From Vicingaceae bacterium (lineage in GTDB: Bacteria; Bacteroidota; Bacteroidia; Flavobacteriales_E; Vicingaceae), in contig JAOKCF010000001.1 of NCBI GenBank assembly GCA_028245195.1, positions 62,001 to 126,000 of the forward strand: DNA of 64,000 nt, read 5' to 3'. Under the pieces are notes generated by a model that was given only the letters and a program-made list of their open reading frames with translations, was not told the origin of the DNA and ran no database searches. Shown here piece after piece: positions 31,714 through 39,945 of the stretch. The translations under genes were made by a program, and so were the position numbers. Positions within the stretch are counted from its first letter, which is position 1. Each line of letters begins with the position of its first letter.

Positions 31714-33177
31714 ATGGCCAAGATATTCCTTATTAGCATAAATCTAATTATTGTATTTGCACTAAAGATATTTTTTGGTGGAGATGTGGAAATCGAACAA
31801 AAAATGCAAGAGATAATTAAGCCTGGCGAAACATTAAATGTTACACTAGAAATCACTAAAGGAGATCGAGAAGGATTTGCAAAATGGCAACAAACACTCC
31901 CTGATGGCTTTATTGCGAGCTCTGTAGAAATGAATGGTGCAACCTTCTCATTTAAAAATCAAGATATAAAAGTGATATGGATGGAAATGCCAAAAGCTGA
32001 AACATTTACCATTCAATATAAGATTGAAACTAGCGAAAGTGTTCTAGGAGAACATAACTTGAGTGGCAAATTTTCGTTTATTGAAGAGAATGAAAGAAGA
32101 GATATCAATTCTGAGCTCTTTATTTTAACAATAGATGGAGAAGCAATGGCTAAAAAGAAATCAAAAGTTGATCAAGAAGACAGTAATAAGGTTGAAGAAA
32201 TAGTATATGCTAAAGACTCCGAATCTAACTCACAAACCAAAGCGTTAAATACAACTGATTCGACAAACAACACTGCTGTTGTTAATCCAACTAAGTCTAA
32301 ATCGTTAAAATCTAATTCTTCTAATCAAATTGCACCTGCAGCGAACAGTTCGGTGCTAATTACAAGAGACATTAAACACATTGAAGGTGGAAGCTACGAA
32401 GTTACCTTGACATTAAATAAAAATGGATTGAAGAGTTTTGGAAAGGTGGAGGACTTTCTTCCGCCCAACTACAGTGCTACTGAGTTAGAAAGTGGAGAAG
32501 GGATCTTTAGCTTTAAAAATAATGTGGTTAAAATCTTATGGATGACCCTTCCGGAAAACCAGGGATTTGAAGTAAAGTATGCTTTACAAAGCAATCCTGA
32601 TGGCTTAGATAGCGCTATTATTCACGGAGTTTTTTCGTACTTAGATAAAGACCAGTCTATTCAAAGTGATGTAGCTCCCACAAAGTTTAAAAACTTCTTA
32701 GTTGAAGAACAAATAGCAGATGCTATCAATAAAAACAACTCATCAGAAAATGAATCTATTAACAACAACCCTATTGACCAAGTTTCAAATACAGAAAGTG
32801 AAGCAATATTAGCCAGTACTCAAGAATCCATTCCTACGTCAAATGAAGAGTTAACGAGGCAAATTACAAATATCCCTGCGCCTGAATCTGCTATAGCTTA
32901 CAAGATTCAAATTGCTGCTTCCCATAAAGAAGTAAATCAAAAATATTTCATCGAAAGACACAATATAAATGAGCCTGTTGCCATAGAGTTTCATAAAACC
33001 TGGTACAAGTACACAGTTGGCTCATTTCCTATATATAAGGAAGCAAGAGATAAAAGAAATCAAGTTTGGGCAGAGAACAACAAAATAAACGATGCCTTTG
33101 TAACCGCTTATAACTCAGGAGAACGTATCTCAGTGCAAGAGGCCCTAATGATTAGCCAACAAAAGTGGTTCAAATAA
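31714..33177 (+). CDS. Envelope protein with duplicated beta domain and SPOR-like C terminus
   Basis: The 487-residue product has one N-terminal hydrophobic helix (IFLISINLIIVFALKIFF) that is either an anchor or an uncleaved signal. Two copies of one domain follow at about 30-140 and 210-325. Each contains a KG/KNGL start, an LP..F/Y stretch, FSFKN and then V-I/L-WM..P (for example TFSFKNQDIKVIWMEMP and IFSFKNNVVKILWMTLP). A Ser/Asn/Thr-rich linker separates them. The end (about 395-475) is a SPOR-like module: YKIQIAASHK, TWYKYTVGSFPIYKEA, NDAFVTAYNSGERIS. The same module ends the next gene, 51 bases downstream. SPOR-type domains often bind denuded peptidoglycan; that role is inferred here. 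I do not recognise a named family. Confidence 0.8.
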   Translation: MAKIFLISINLIIVFALKIFFGGDVEIEQKMQEIIKPGETLNVTLEITKGDREGFAKWQQTLPDGFIASSVEMNGATFSFKNQDIKVIWMEMPKAETFTIQYKIETSESVLGEHNLSGKFSFIEENERRDINSELFILTIDGEAMAKKKSKVDQEDSNKVEEIVYAKDSESNSQTKALNTTDSTNNTAVVNPTKSKSLKSNSSNQIAPAANSSVLITRDIKHIEGGSYEVTLTLNKNGLKSFGKVEDFLPPNYSATELESGEGIFSFKNNVVKILWMTLPENQGFEVKYALQSNPDGLDSAIIHGVFSYLDKDQSIQSDVAPTKFKNFLVEEQIADAINKNNSSENESINNNPIDQVSNTESEAILASTQESIPTSNEELTRQITNIPAPESAIAYKIQIAASHKEVNQKYFIERHNINEPVAIEFHKTWYKYTVGSFPIYKEARDKRNQVWAENNKINDAFVTAYNSGERISVQEALMISQQKWFK

Positions 33178-33228
33178 TCTGATTAAAAAAATAAGAATTA
33201 TCTTTATCCCTCAATTGGATAATACAGA

Positions 33229-35013
33229 ATGAGATATTTTTTGCTTAGCGTAATATTTATTTTAACAATTAAGGTTGCTAAAAGTCAGGATATTGAAGCT
33301 GATAAGGAAAGTGAGATAAATGTTACTAAGGCATTTGGACCGTCTTTTGGAGTTGGTATTGGGACTATCGCATTTTACGGTGATTTAAACGATCGAGACT
33401 ACGGTTCTCCTTTTGCATCAAACATTGGTTACAACTTTTATGTATTACAACCTGTTAGTAGATCGTTTAATGTCAAGTTCGGGTTCTTTTTAGGCAAAGT
33501 AAGGGAAGAAGAGCGTTCACTTGAAAGAAACTTAAACTTTGAAACTGATATTCGATCAGCTTCCGTCCAAATGGAATATAATTTCGATGCACTTCTACCT
33601 GAGAATCGCTCTATTACCCCATTTGTAACGGCAGGGTTTGCAGCAATTGAATTTAACCCCAAATCTGACCTAACTGCAAACGGAGGAGAACCCTACAACT
33701 ATTGGACCGACGGAACTATTCGAAGCGTTTCAGAAAATTCGTCATCTGCAGATCAAGCTAAAATAATTCAACGAGATTATATCTACGAAACGGATATAAG
33801 AGAAGCGGCATTCAACAACAGCACTACTTATGCCGAAAGATCTTTTGCCATCCCATTAGGTGCCGGAATAAACTTCCACCTAACAGATCAAGTTAATTTC
33901 AGATTTGAGAGTATTTTCCATTTAACATTTACAGATTATATAGATGGGGTAACCCGTACAACTAAGCCAGATTTTTTAGGCAATAAACCAGCCAACGGAG
34001 CTAACGATCACCTGTTATATAATGGAATTTCAGTTAATTATAACTTTGATAAAATTCAACCTGCGGATAACTTGAATGTTGAGACCGAAGAAGCTTTCGA
34101 TTTCTTGGCTAATGGGAATAGTGAAGACTATGACAATGATGGAGTAATTGACCTCATTGACTTATGCCCTAAAACCCCTCCCAATTTTGAAGTGGATACA
34201 AATGGGTGTGCTATTGACACCGATGGAGATGGAATTGCTGACTACCTTGATGAAGAAATCAATTCAGAATACCCACAATTTGCGAATGATAAGGGAATTT
34301 CAATGACAGATGAAATGATTTATAAATCATACATGAGTTACAAAGACTCGACTTTAGAATTTGCTGAAATTATACAAAGAGATTTTAAGGGAGATACACT
34401 TGGCGGATACAACAAAACGTATAAAAAATACAGAATTAAGATTGACGAGTATAATCGTGGAGAAGAACCTCAAAACTTAAACGCCCTTCTTAGTCTTGCA
34501 GACTTAAAAAAAGTTGACCAAGGAGATAAATCAATTTACACTGTTGGAAATTATAAAACACTAAAAGAAGCTAACGTAAGGCTACAAGCGCTCAAAAATA
34601 GTGGATTTGAGCCTGAAGTTGTAAAAAGAGATCCTTCCGGTACTATTTCAGGAGTGAACGAACAAGAATTAGAAATACTAGCAATAGCGGCCAGTGCAAT
34701 TGACAAAAACACTACTGCATTAGCAAAAGAAGAAGGGTTAGCCTTTAGGGTTCAATTAGGAGCCTTTAAAGAAAAGCCAACATCTGCAAAGTATAACAAC
34801 ATCCCAGATCTTTTTATAATTGAAAGTGATGGTGTATACAAATACATGTCGGGTTCATTTTTAACTTTCGAAGAAGCTGCCAAGCACAAAATAAAAATGG
34901 TAGTTGCAGGATTTCAAGGAGGTTTTGTTGTCGCTTACAAGGATGGGCAACGAGTAAAGTTAAGAGATGTTGGTGTAAAGCAAATAAAGTCCAACCCATT
35001 GATTGGTAAATAG
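33229..35013 (+). CDS. Outer-membrane beta-barrel protein with TSP3 calcium repeats and SPOR-like modules
   Basis: A 594-residue protein with a signal peptide (residues 1-20, ending AKSQ). A porin-like N-terminal region at about 35-275 contains GVGIGTIAFYGDLND, PFVTAGFAAIEFNP and ISVNYNF. Thrombospondin type 3-like calcium loops lie at about 300-340 (DYDNDGVIDLIDLCP, DTDGDGIADYLDE). After a linker come two SPOR-like units, about 435-475 (YTVGNYKTLKEANVRL) and 500-575 (FRVQLGAFKEKP, YKYMSGSFLTFEEAAKH, GGFVVAYKDGQRV). The layout, barrel then calcium-bound stalk then a periplasmic peptidoglycan-type module, resembles OmpA-like tethers in which SPOR-like units replace the OmpA domain. It is likely co-transcribed with the preceding gene. 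Confidence 0.82.
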   Translation: MRYFLLSVIFILTIKVAKSQDIEADKESEINVTKAFGPSFGVGIGTIAFYGDLNDRDYGSPFASNIGYNFYVLQPVSRSFNVKFGFFLGKVREEERSLERNLNFETDIRSASVQMEYNFDALLPENRSITPFVTAGFAAIEFNPKSDLTANGGEPYNYWTDGTIRSVSENSSSADQAKIIQRDYIYETDIREAAFNNSTTYAERSFAIPLGAGINFHLTDQVNFRFESIFHLTFTDYIDGVTRTTKPDFLGNKPANGANDHLLYNGISVNYNFDKIQPADNLNVETEEAFDFLANGNSEDYDNDGVIDLIDLCPKTPPNFEVDTNGCAIDTDGDGIADYLDEEINSEYPQFANDKGISMTDEMIYKSYMSYKDSTLEFAEIIQRDFKGDTLGGYNKTYKKYRIKIDEYNRGEEPQNLNALLSLADLKKVDQGDKSIYTVGNYKTLKEANVRLQALKNSGFEPEVVKRDPSGTISGVNEQELEILAIAASAIDKNTTALAKEEGLAFRVQLGAFKEKPTSAKYNNIPDLFIIESDGVYKYMSGSFLTFEEAAKHKIKMVVAGFQGGFVVAYKDGQRVKLRDVGVKQIKSNPLIGK

Positions 35014-35123: not shown

Positions 35124-36734
35124 ATGAAAAAAATAAGCCTTACTCTCTGTTTTTTGTTTTCAGCAATGATTGGAACCTTCGCTCAACAGAAAAACGAAAA
35201 ACGATTACATAAAGATTCCCTACAATACGATAAATTTGGAAAATTACTTTATACAGTAGTTAGCCAGTATGTGGACAGTGTTGACAGTGAAGAACTAATT
35301 GAAAATGCAATTAAAGGAATGCTGAAGGAGCTTGACCCTCACTCAGTCTATATCCCGGAAAAAGAGTACGATCGGATGAATGAACCGCTTGAGGGTAACT
35401 TTGAAGGAATTGGAATCCAATTTAATATATTAAATGACACTCTTGTTGTAGTTTCTCCAATTTCAGGAGGACCTTCCGAAGAAGTTGGGATTTCTTCCGG
35501 TGACAAAATTATTTTTGTTGGTAAAGAAAATATTGCAGGGACCGGATTACAAAATAGTGATGTTCAGCGATTATTGAGAGGAAAGAAAGGAACTTTAGTT
35601 GAGGTACAAATAAAACGAAATGGAGAAAAGAACCTTCTTCCATTTGAGATTAAAAGAGACAAAATCCCAATTTACAGTGTAGATGCATCTTACATGGCAA
35701 CACCTGAAACGGGTTACATTAAAGTGAATCGCTTTGCCAGGACTACCATGAAAGAGTTTGTTCAAGCTATCGATACATTAAAAAGAGATGGAGCAAAGAA
35801 TTTAATTTTAGATTTACGAGGTAATGGCGGAGGCTACTTAACTACTGCCTTTCAGCTAGCTGACCAATTCTTGGGCGCGGGAAAAATGATTGTTTACACT
35901 CAAGGGGAGAACCAAGTTAGACAAGAGTATAAAGCAACAAGGATAGGTACCTTCGAAACGGGTAAACTTATTGTTTTAATTGATGAAGGTTCAGCATCTG
36001 CTTCTGAAATTGTTTCAGGAGCTGTTCAAGACTGGGACCGAGGAATGATCATTGGTCGCAGATCATTTGGAAAGGGTCTAGTGCAGAAGCCATTTAACTT
36101 ACCTGATGGTTCTGCCATTAGATTAACTACTGCCCGTTATTACACTCCCACCGGAAGATCTATACAAAGACCATATAATGAAGGGAAAGAAAATTATTAT
36201 AACGAATTAAATAGAAGATTTGAGAGTGGTGAACTAATGGAACGAGATTCAATTAATTTTCCAGATTCATTAACTTACTACACTCCAAACAAGAGAGTAG
36301 TGTATGGCGGAGGGGGTATTATGCCAGATATTTTTATCGCATTAGACACTACCATCAATACTCAATTGAATCGAAATCTTATTAGGAGAGGCGTATACAA
36401 TCAATTTGTATTAAGTTATTTAAATACTCATCGCGAAGAGTTAAAAATAAAATATCCAGCTTTCGAATCATTCAAATCAGACTTTAAATTAGATGACAAA
36501 TTAATTGAAGATTTTTTCGCGTTCGCCCAAAAGAAGAAGGTAAAAAAAGACGAGGATGATTATAAAAAATCAAAAAGACTAATTGAATCACAATTAACTG
36601 CTCTTTTCGCAAGAAATCTGTATTCTGTGTCTGCCTATTTTGAAATTATTAATGAATTAAATGATTCATATCTTGAAGCGTTAAAAATTCTTAAAGGTGA
36701 CGCATTCGAGGAGGCGAAACTCAACTATGAATAA
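35124..36734 (+). CDS. Carboxy-terminal processing protease (S41, CtpA type)
   Basis: A 536-residue exported protease with a signal peptide ending near TFAQ (residue 21). A helical region is followed by a PDZ domain at about 90-180 (GIGIQFNILNDTLVVVSPI, GLQNSDVQRLLRGKKGT). The S41 catalytic core has ILDLRGNGGGYL, the serine loop DEGSASASEIVSGA (nucleophile expected at S292) and the base lysine in RRSFGKGLVQ (K317). The C-terminal extension of some 150 residues is rich in charged helices, usual for Bacteroidota members. Such enzymes trim C termini of periplasmic proteins and control peptidoglycan hydrolases elsewhere; the substrate here is unknown. Confidence 0.94.
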   Translation: MKKISLTLCFLFSAMIGTFAQQKNEKRLHKDSLQYDKFGKLLYTVVSQYVDSVDSEELIENAIKGMLKELDPHSVYIPEKEYDRMNEPLEGNFEGIGIQFNILNDTLVVVSPISGGPSEEVGISSGDKIIFVGKENIAGTGLQNSDVQRLLRGKKGTLVEVQIKRNGEKNLLPFEIKRDKIPIYSVDASYMATPETGYIKVNRFARTTMKEFVQAIDTLKRDGAKNLILDLRGNGGGYLTTAFQLADQFLGAGKMIVYTQGENQVRQEYKATRIGTFETGKLIVLIDEGSASASEIVSGAVQDWDRGMIIGRRSFGKGLVQKPFNLPDGSAIRLTTARYYTPTGRSIQRPYNEGKENYYNELNRRFESGELMERDSINFPDSLTYYTPNKRVVYGGGGIMPDIFIALDTTINTQLNRNLIRRGVYNQFVLSYLNTHREELKIKYPAFESFKSDFKLDDKLIEDFFAFAQKKKVKKDEDDYKKSKRLIESQLTALFARNLYSVSAYFEIINELNDSYLEALKILKGDAFEEAKLNYE

Positions 36735-36770: not shown

Positions 36771-37328
36771 ATGAACGATAATGTAAAAACGGGTCTTTTA
36801 GTAGCCTTTTCAATTCTAACTTTGGTGAACACTGTTATGATATTTTCAGACGATGATGTTTCTTATGACAGACCTGAGCGAAGTATCTCTACTTCAGCTC
36901 CAATAACTCCTGCTACTCCGACAAATACAGCAATGGACAATAACGCAGCAGTTGTACCTCAGAATACAGGTCCAAAAACGGCTATTCAATTTACTGAAAT
37001 GGAACATGATTTTGGAACTATTGATCAAAACACTACAAACCCTAAAGTATTTTCATTTACAAATACAGGAGATGAGCCTTTAATCATTTCAGACGCAAAA
37101 GGCAGCTGTGGTTGCACCGTACCTGAATACCCAAGACAACCAATTGCTCCAGGTGAAACAGGAAACATCAAAGTAGTTTATAGTCCTGGAACGCAAGCAA
37201 ACCAGCAAACAAAATCAATTACCATTACTGCTAATACAGAGCCTGCAACAACTGTTTTAAGAATTAAAGCGAATGTGACTCCAGGTGAGAGTGCAGGAAA
37301 CGCAGCCCCAATAGAAATAGGAGAGTAA
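36771..37328 (+). CDS. DUF1573 domain protein
   Basis: The 185-residue protein has an N-terminal hydrophobic helix (TGLLVAFSILTLVNTVMIF) as signal or anchor and a Thr/Pro/Ala linker. A single DUF1573 domain follows from about residue 75: MEHDFGTIDQNTT, FSFTNTGDEPLIISDAKGSC ending in GCTVPEYP, and PIAPGETGNIKVVYSPGTQ. This Ig-like fold is very common in Bacteroidota exported proteins and has a conserved CGC pair; its function is not known. It ends at a terminator and probably has its own promoter. Confidence 0.9.
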   Translation: MNDNVKTGLLVAFSILTLVNTVMIFSDDDVSYDRPERSISTSAPITPATPTNTAMDNNAAVVPQNTGPKTAIQFTEMEHDFGTIDQNTTNPKVFSFTNTGDEPLIISDAKGSCGCTVPEYPRQPIAPGETGNIKVVYSPGTQANQQTKSITITANTEPATTVLRIKANVTPGESAGNAAPIEIGE

Positions 37329-37865: not shown

Positions 37866-39945
37866 TTACTTATTTACAGTAATCTTTTTAGTTACCAATT
37901 TATCTCCAATACGAAGTGTAGTAAAGTAAATTCCGTTACTTAACATAGAAACGTTAAGTGCTATTCTTTGATTTCCTTGAGCTATTAAACCTAGATCTTG
38001 AGACATTACTTCTTTTCCTGTAATATCTCTTACCATCACTGAAACGTTTTCTCTATCCTCCAAATCAATTGAGATATTGGTGATGTCTTTACTTGGATTA
38101 GGATAAACCTCAAAAGTTGTATTTCCTTTTGCTTCATTTTTCGAAATACCTACTCCTAGCAATTGATTTAACTTAACTTCTTTTGCATTCAACACTTCAT
38201 ATTCTTCAAGACCTGGACCTCTGTATGCAATTACAGCTACTAGATATACTTGACCCTCATTATATGAATTATCTAAACTTACATTAAAGTTTCTTTGATA
38301 ATCCGTGTAAAGTGCTATAGGCGATGAAATAACAGTAGCGTCACCATAAGTAGATGGAAGAGTTTGTCTGTGCACATGCTCGTGAACGTATCCTACAATT
38401 GGATCACCTAATCCAGCGAATGGATGCCCTGCAGTTGCGTTATAGAAGTTTCTTTGGTCGTAAGTAGCTCCTCCTGTTACACTATCTTCCACTATCATCA
38501 AACTCATGCTTATATCTCCAGGTAATGGGTAGTCAACAAAATTAGATTTTACATCAACATCTATTTGTCTTGTTGCATTGTTATAGTTCCCTTTAATATC
38601 CACATTCACGAGCGCTCCATCTGCTGTTCTATCTCGAGCTCTTATAAACCATGGGTTCGAACTAGATGGAACAGAAGCATTAAAGTTGATTCCAAAAGTT
38701 GGCCTAGCCTCTCCATCAAACAATATTCTATCAACCATACCTCTGTGCTGGAGCGCTGTTATTACCAAGATCACTACAAAGCTCAACTAATTCGTTATTT
38801 GTCATTGGATCAGTACCAAAACAAGCATGCAAGCCAACTAGTATGCTGTTCTGCACATTATTTAGAATATATTCAGAAGTAATGGTTGCATTCGGGCAAA
38901 ATCCACATGGCACAGTGGTGAACTCTTCTAACAATGCATTTCTAGTTACAGTTTGACCAAAATTAATAAATGATGTTGCTGAAGCTGAATTATTTGATGG
39001 ATTTTCATCCGCTACCCCGTTTGGATTACTTCCAGTAACTTTTACTGTGTATGAAGCTCCTGCAATTGGAGACCATCCTGTTGGATGAGTATATATGTAT
39101 GACGAGCCTGGTGCGATATTAGCAGAAATATTTGCCGTTCTATTATTTAAACCACCGTCTGCAGTCCATGTTAAATCAAAACTTGTAATCGCTGCAGAAC
39201 CGTTATTCTTCGCTTCACCAGTAATTGTAATTGTACTAGTACTACTACGTGATTCAACTCTATCCAAATCTACAGACGAAATCACAATATCGTTAGCAGT
39301 TCTGTTACCTTGAATAAATTCGTAGTAAACATTATCTGTTGGATCAGATGCATTACCGCCATTTGTAACAAATGATTGTGTGCTTGGAGCTCCTGCTATT
39401 TCTATTGCAGTAGTAGCATCAATTTGCACACCAAGTGTTAGATTCAAAGTCGTGTTAAAAGACCTCAAATCAGCGATATATATATTGTTTGTAGTTTCTT
39501 CTAAAACGATTCCCCAATAGGTCCAATGACCCTGTGCAGTATTAATTGCTCCAACTGGAGAAGAATAGGAAGCAAAATTTACCCAAAGTTGTCTATTTGG
39601 AGCAGTACCATGTACTTTCATTATCACACCGTCATTACCAGCACCTTGCTGCAATCCCCATATCAAAACTGACTTATCAGGAATATTAGCACCAGGTAGT
39701 GTTGTGTTTGTTGTTGTTGGAACAGTAGTAGCTGAACCTGTAAAAGTTAATACTCCAGAGTTAGAAACCTTAAAATTAGTTTCTGGACTACCATTAAATT
39801 TAAATGGTATAGTTTGAAGCGGCGACCACTGTAATCCTAGAGCTGTCGTTGAAGCTGGCATTAACACTGAGTAACCATCCCCTGCGGTAACGCCTGTTGC
39901 ACCAAATGGCTGTTCAGCATCTGTATTTAAACCACCTGGGTTCAT
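37866..39945 (-). pseudogene. Omp28-type T9SS cargo gene, 5'-truncated and frameshifted
   Basis: Two overlapping minus-strand frames (39945-38731 and 38786-37866) together make one protein of about 690 residues. The first starts MNPGGLNTDAEQPFG without any signal peptide, then has Ig/BACON-like strands and the Omp28 signature ALLEEFTTVPCGFCPNATIT. It runs to NNSAPAQ and stops. The second frame takes over near base 38747 with RGMVDRILFDGEARP and ends in a type A sorting domain (EVYPNPSKD, GIYFTTLRI, KKITVNK). One inserted base, or two lost, would explain the break; no slippery heptamer is visible there. A cargo without an export signal cannot reach T9SS. Its start codon overlaps the xerD stop (ATGA) inside a 22-bp palindrome. 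Confidence 0.85.

Follow-up and report, generated by a model that had tools for sequence, protein, structure and literature searches.

In a 64-kb stretch of contig JAOKCF010000001.1 (positions 62,001 to 126,000; hereafter the window), part of the draft genome of a Vicingaceae bacterium of the phylum Bacteroidota (2.33 Mb, 84% complete), two genes that we call A (31714-33177, 487 amino acids) and B (33229-35013, 594 amino acids) lie on the plus strand with a gap of 51 bases between them. An initial annotation of this DNA had placed two adjacent envelope protein genes at 31714-35013, and both open reading frames (ORFs) were confirmed. From its N-terminus, A consists of a hydrophobic helix, two beta-sandwich domains and a SPOR-type domain, and B of a signal peptide, an outer-membrane barrel, a TSP3-type linker and two SPOR units. 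These assignments are based on the ORFs, on AlphaFold2 models of both proteins, for which structure matches are given as VIA Z scores, and on alignments of 34 orthologs of A and 33 orthologs of B, homology between modules being judged by profile-profile comparison with hhalign.

In the model of A (mean predicted local distance difference test score 76), the helix at residues 2-20 (31717-31773) is followed by beta-sandwiches at residues 26-140 (31789-32133) and 215-326 (32356-32691) and by a SPOR-like unit at residues 394-481 (32893-33156), with disordered stretches at residues 144-211 and 338-390. Each of the two beta domains is a repeat of the other (hhalign probability 100, expectation value (E) 4.1e-41), and the membrane helix and twice-repeated beta domain that had been proposed for this protein were thus both recovered. 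The beta-sandwiches have the common immunoglobulin/pilin-like fold, the top structure match being the pilin BcpA (Z 13.3). Weak Pfam kinship of the repeats to bMG10, DUF11 and BatD was seen in a minority of the orthologs (best E 5.9e-6, 1.9e-5 and 1.8e-5, respectively); the beta domain of the window's own A did not match these three models, and a profile of the A beta domains found none of the solved structures at E values up to 10. Family models covering A as a whole were not found. The A proteins at two loci, L060 and L061, are without the second beta domain.

The N-terminal helix of A is probably an uncleaved inner-membrane anchor, since few A proteins show a credible cleavage motif. Its best 19-residue hydropathy value is at least 1.6 in 33 of the 34 orthologs, and residue 10 is N, H or Q in 32. 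The signal-peptidase-like motif [AGSTV]x[AGS]Q is present in 6 of the 34 A proteins versus 16 of the 33 B proteins, and five of the six A cases fall beyond the helix, at a V-x-Q that is conserved in the first beta domain. By eye, cleavable-looking signal peptides were found in two A proteins (those of L060 and L061), backed by the motif only in L061. In B of the window, residues 1-19 (33229-33285) form a signal peptide ending in AKS before Q20; the motif follows the rule of a Q after the cleavage site, as given in the available part of PMC10653852.

The model of B contains an eight-stranded barrel at residues 39-272 (33343-34044) and SPOR-like units at residues 401-475 (SPOR 1, 34429-34653) and 504-576 (SPOR 2, 34738-34956), and between barrel and SPOR 1 lies the TSP3-type linker (residues 299-345, 34123-34263), which is predicted to bind calcium. 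The barrel has the OmpA fold, with a Z of 18.1 against an OmpA model (174 residues, 2.6 Å) and of 15.5-16.6 against OmpA crystal structures, and is DUF6089/PorG-like in sequence (Pfam DUF6089, 39.6 bits, over the cut-off of 23.2), and the OmpA domain PF00691 gave no match in B up to E 1. In the window's B, TSP3 scores 21.6 bits, below the Pfam cut-off of 25, and it matches at E <= 0.01 in 18 of the 33 orthologs; C313 and C327, the sole cysteines of B, both lie in this linker and are invariant (33/33). The barrel, the TSP3 loops and the second SPOR-like unit of the initial annotation are therefore all present, TSP3 below its cut-off. A third SPOR is present in many relatives, 17 of 74 barrels downstream of A scoring three SPOR matches.

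Comparison of the modules showed that the C-terminus of A is homologous to SPOR 2 of B (hhalign probability 99.4, E 2.9e-21), so that the C-terminal module said to be shared by the two proteins is beyond chance, and that SPOR 1 is homologous to SPOR 2 (probability 97.9). SPOR 2 is canonical: it scores 29.2 bits with Pfam SPOR (PF05036, cut-off 21), reaches E 1.6e-5 in an hmmsearch of PDB sequences and superposes on the SPOR domain of CwlC (1x60) with a Z of 8.8 over 74 residues at 2.3 Å and 27% identity. By this match and by hhalign both modules align to one fold, and the concern that they might align to unrelated folds did not hold. We term the module of A SPOR-type because of its homology to SPOR 2, not on its Pfam score. 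In the structure search with the whole of A, matches to the beta-sandwich domains took up the entire list.

According to the available part of PMC6895207, the SPOR domain of RlpA uses Q270 and a basic patch to bind glycan strands that are free of stem peptides, with counterparts at Q251, W283 and R285 of FtsN and at K42 and K47 of CwlC. In the SPOR module of A, Q399 and K432 are present in 34/34 orthologs and W430 in 31/34, the invariant residues being Q399, A402, K432 and G436. W430 and K432 form a W-x-basic pattern that fits W283/R285 of FtsN by spacing, and K432 falls on the basic-patch residue K47 of CwlC in the HMMER alignment. Similarly, SPOR 2 of B has Q509 in all 33 orthologs and K or R at position 538 in all 33. 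The A module and SPOR 2 thus retain the residues of a known site and are predicted to bind glycan. In the alignment of A, the SPOR module together with its C-terminal extension is the most conserved region of the protein. Among its most conserved parts are residues 474-485 (33133-33168), following the SPOR core with the consensus TVQEALMISxQKW, and the strong conservation of this stretch points to a contact with a protein in addition to the predicted one with glycan.

The same subtype of SPOR was also found on amidases. A profile of the A-type SPOR matched the C-terminus of an Amidase_3 (N-acetylmuramoyl-L-alanine amidase) fragment in the window's own genome with 41 bits (L005:3-641, plus strand; identified by Pfam and cut by the contig end), and in relatives an A-type SPOR ends amidases in 10 of 19 regions (L163-L181), which were picked for short ORFs and in which the amidase was read by eye from its IDAGH motif. 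Enzymes of the class that generates denuded glycan thus have the same SPOR reader subtype as A. The ORF after the amidase fragment is MlaD/MCE-like by eye.

We compared the surroundings of A in two sets of loci that overlap in species, one of 39 loci from relatives with A matches and one of 80 loci retained from a contig scan matching 320 relatives. A B-type barrel lies directly beside A in 76 of the 80 loci (74 downstream, 22 upstream) and in 37 of the 39 (no barrel in L065 and L066), so that the possibility, raised with the initial annotation, of A and B being rarely neighbours elsewhere did not hold. The flanks of the pair vary, with an antiporter, a CtpA protease and a DUF1573 protein in the window's genus and, at other loci, genes that we take to be UvrA and a member of the LOG family. 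Many relatives have a second, shorter barrel upstream of A, and at many loci titled Bacteroidales a barrel of this kind, which lacks SPOR and ends in a conserved EF-hand tail, is the sole partner of A. What stays the same across the loci is thus A together with a TSP3-linked barrel, and the SPOR tail of B is an addition that occurs in the window's family and in several other families. The alternative partner, with TSP3 and a C-terminal EF-hand tail ending in LIDFFFEQ or similar, is encoded at L068:10311-11642 (minus strand), at L109:11352-12704 (plus strand) and at other loci; among 11 genomes searched, G028 was the only one in which this tail was detected, at its A locus, and no such tail turned up elsewhere in the genome of the window. 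At L060 and L061, several genes for PorG/OmpA-like barrels in a row surround A, with five B-type matches at each locus. The Bacteroidota promoter pattern gave 5 matches versus 5.17 expected, none of them upstream of A.

A cohesin/dockerin arrangement, in which the A domains would be cohesin-like by fold and the tail of the alternative barrel dockerin-like, was considered and not supported. Cohesin 3l8q is among the Foldseek matches of the A beta domains, at ranks 15, 16, 22 and 24, but the cohesin reading is spoken against by the lack of a profile match to structures and by the best structural matches being pilin and adhesin domains, and the dockerin reading by the tail matching EF-hand_6 in 31 of 32 cases and Dockerin_1 in one (1/32), weakly.

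In a presence/absence panel of 60 relatives (37 genomes of the same family and 23 of other families), the A beta domain was detected in 50, comprising 36 of the 37 same-family and 14 of the 23 other-family genomes, and the single same-family miss, G006, is 66% complete. In a sample of the phylum (296 genomes), the A profile matched 10 genomes and was full-length in two, one being the window's own; A is absent from heavily sampled Bacteroidota families. The closest named match is 'Flavobacteriales bacterium HE327_NSB038', with 78% identity in A, and Acidiluteibacter ferrifornacis (Flavobacteriales, Cryomorphaceae in NCBI) carries an A locus (L087). TolB_N was matched in 1 of the 60 relatives, at a borderline score, and not in the window's genome. 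TolB is missing in relatives both with and without A, which leaves no contrast for a correlation with presence or absence of Tol-Pal.

With about even chances in our estimate, A and B together constitute an envelope tether joining the inner membrane, the wall and the outer membrane. The N-terminal helix would anchor A in the inner membrane, from which the protein would span to the wall by its two beta-sandwich domains, acting as pillars, and its two disordered stretches, acting as linkers, and its C-terminal SPOR would hold glycan strands, most likely those stripped of peptides by amidases. B would reside in the outer membrane via its OmpA-like barrel, and its calcium-stiffened TSP3 linker would bear the two SPOR units, the last of which would also grip the wall. 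The two proteins would link all three layers at amidase-active sites such as the division septum, where their wall readers would fasten both membranes to amidase-stripped wall, and they would do a job that is elsewhere divided between OmpA/Pal-type and FtsN/DedD-type proteins. The computed basis of the tether consists of the domains and their homology, the retained binding residues, the long-range pairing and the near-universal presence in the family. Also in its favour are the SPOR subtype that amidases have in common with A and the OmpA-like layout of B, with SPOR where OmpA has its C-terminal domain. In the initial annotation, one protein had been placed inside and the other outside, each ending in a possible peptidoglycan-binding module, an arrangement supported by architecture, residue conservation and synteny. 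Its functional claim is supported in part: the envelope-spanning tether is the best reading, a motility or secretion accessory role is not supported (see below) and the shared SPOR end is not constant.

Several observations count against the tether. The loci are related by descent, so that the neighbour counts are not independent, and among the exceptions in the 80-locus set one is a contig end and three have no barrel (L121, L136 and L143). In 35 of the 74 downstream barrels there is no SPOR match, many of them being EF-hand-tailed (five of the 35, at L080, L082, L119, L125 and L153, run into a contig end), and since an EF-hand tail takes the place of SPOR in many partner barrels, the pairing does not depend on a barrel-borne SPOR. 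The A module scores 15.8 bits with Pfam SPOR, below the cut-off, 6 of the 34 A orthologs match that model at E <= 0.01, and the A profile reaches a solved SPOR at E 0.1 only. SPOR 1 of B is degenerate, retaining the glycan-binding Gln in only 11 of 33 orthologs, and may be structural only, because this residue is mostly lost. The window's genome has 11 OmpA-domain matches, 10 over the cut-off, which represent other candidate wall-binding outer-membrane proteins; for the same reason, the idea that SPOR proteins replace OmpA-domain proteins here was rejected. The weakest links are the membrane topology of A, the glycan binding, the septal position and the direct cooperation of A and B, all of which we infer.

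The variable partner may also be explained by A alone being the functional unit, an FtsN/DedD-like sensor or scaffold for denuded septal wall, with the adjoining barrels as outer-membrane constriction partners and the SPOR tail of B as a lineage-specific addition. A is constant while its partner varies between the SPOR-tailed B of the window's family and the EF-hand barrel of many loci titled Bacteroidales, its SPOR and C-terminal extension are its most conserved part, and a membrane helix, linkers and a C-terminal SPOR are the usual layout of SPOR proteins in the available part of PMC6895207. We nevertheless consider this unlikely, as the genome contains a better FtsN candidate, a membrane protein with a terminal SPOR over the Pfam cut-off (and an HU-like N-terminus by eye), and as relatives with full genomes are without A, showing that division does not need it. 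A little less likely is a role as an accessory of the type IX secretion system (T9SS) or of gliding, in which a PorG-like B would ride on a T9SS complex or the GldK/PorK track, with A as its link to the inner membrane. The barrel of B does match PorG (NF052316) with E 8.6e-22, SprA is present in 59 of the 60 relatives, a T9SS is in all likelihood present in the window's organism because an Omp28-like gene of the window has a T9SS sorting domain (41.4 bits, cut-off 23), and a PorE-like protein of the same genome is also SPOR-ended. However, all ten relatives without the A domain have SprA, so the pair is not a core part of the T9SS, and B, with 77.9 bits, is below the PorG equivalog cut-off of 130, whereas a separate PorG in the same genome is over it (163.2 bits). 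The latter has the tail cysteine and B has none, its two cysteines both lying in the TSP3 linker; in the available part of PMC12635249, PorG is disulfide-bonded to GldK via tail cysteines. On these grounds we rejected B as PorG and did not file the pair as part of the T9SS, and the motility/secretion half of the earlier functional claim is not supported. SprA gave no match in the window's own draft, which is uninformative at 84% completeness.

A more specific form of the tether, which we hold to be doubtful, is that, in this TolB-less lineage, A and B form a dedicated two-protein bridge across amidase-stripped wall that would pull the outer membrane in at division, providing a Tol-Pal-like function from SPOR domains, and that an older version of the bridge used the EF-hand-tailed barrel; the pair is a possible Tol-Pal substitute. 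The least probable explanation is that A and B have no joint function and are two independent envelope proteins kept adjacent by operon inheritance. The genomes compared have a common ancestry, A and B each have a generic build and an interaction between them is only predicted, but the pairing survives while the flanking genes change, and in two genomes (L060 and L061) A lies in a row of barrel genes that includes up to five additional ones of this type.

The PorE-like protein mentioned above (L076:4358-9865, minus strand; 1836 amino acids) has a PD40 repeat, matches the PorE model with E 4.2e-24 and the CHU_0125 model with E 2.5e-26, and ends in two A-type SPOR units, which come after a long, charged middle region that is probably a coiled coil; giants resembling it are present in several relatives. 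A few loci have large alpha-2-macroglobulin-like genes (about 1,900 amino acids, read by eye) beside the A-B pair, and the idea that these neighbours are SPOR giants was rejected, since none matched the PorE-like protein.

In the window, A is preceded by a Na+/H+ antiporter-family gene, and B is followed on the plus strand by a CtpA/Prc-type C-terminal processing protease (35124-36734; TIGR00225, 297 bits, cut-off 218.6) and a DUF1573 protein (36771-37328; Pfam). These two genes had been annotated as following the pair on the same strand, which is correct for the window but does not extend to the family, as they are near A in 12 of the 39 loci only, the linkage of both being lineage-limited. 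On the minus strand at 37866-39945, two overlapping ORFs correspond to consecutive parts of the Omp28 model (34-99 and 111-249), the downstream ORF having a T9SS type A sorting domain, and the two look like halves of a single gene broken by a frameshift or an assembly error.

In comparison with known proteins, B resembles those of the OmpA/OprF type in having an eight-stranded OmpA-fold barrel, a TSP3-type linker and a periplasmic, predicted wall-binding end but differs in having SPOR units in place of the OmpA domain, and it shares its barrel family with PorG but differs in its score, its tail and its long TSP3-SPOR extension. Like FtsN, DedD, DamX, RlpA and CwlC, both A and B have a C-terminal SPOR with the conserved Gln and basic residue, and with FtsN, judging from the model and hydropathy, A also shares the N-terminal membrane helix and the linker. 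A differs from other SPOR proteins in its two beta-sandwich domains and its conserved post-SPOR extension, and B in being an outer-membrane barrel, a type of SPOR carrier of which the literature compared contains no example. OmpA proteins of the PorE/CHU_0125 type are likewise periplasmic wall tethers of Bacteroidota, and the PorE-like protein of this genome is SPOR-ended, but they have only SPOR in common with A or B; the likeness of the A repeats to bMG10, DUF11 and BatD beta-sandwich domains is weak. No description of a pair resembling A and B was found in the open-access literature searched, and the initial annotation likewise stated that no named system is known to have this exact make-up. 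The pair appears to be undescribed, although each module is known and its kind is that of wall-binding envelope tethers.

Attachment of the outer membrane to the wall and its constriction at division are much less worked out in Bacteroidota than in Proteobacteria. A and B provide a directly testable candidate for a tether, present in nearly every genome of a family lacking TolB and with predicted wall-binding residues on proteins of both membranes, and they indicate that SPOR domains can occur on outer-membrane barrels, beyond inner-membrane proteins and hydrolases.

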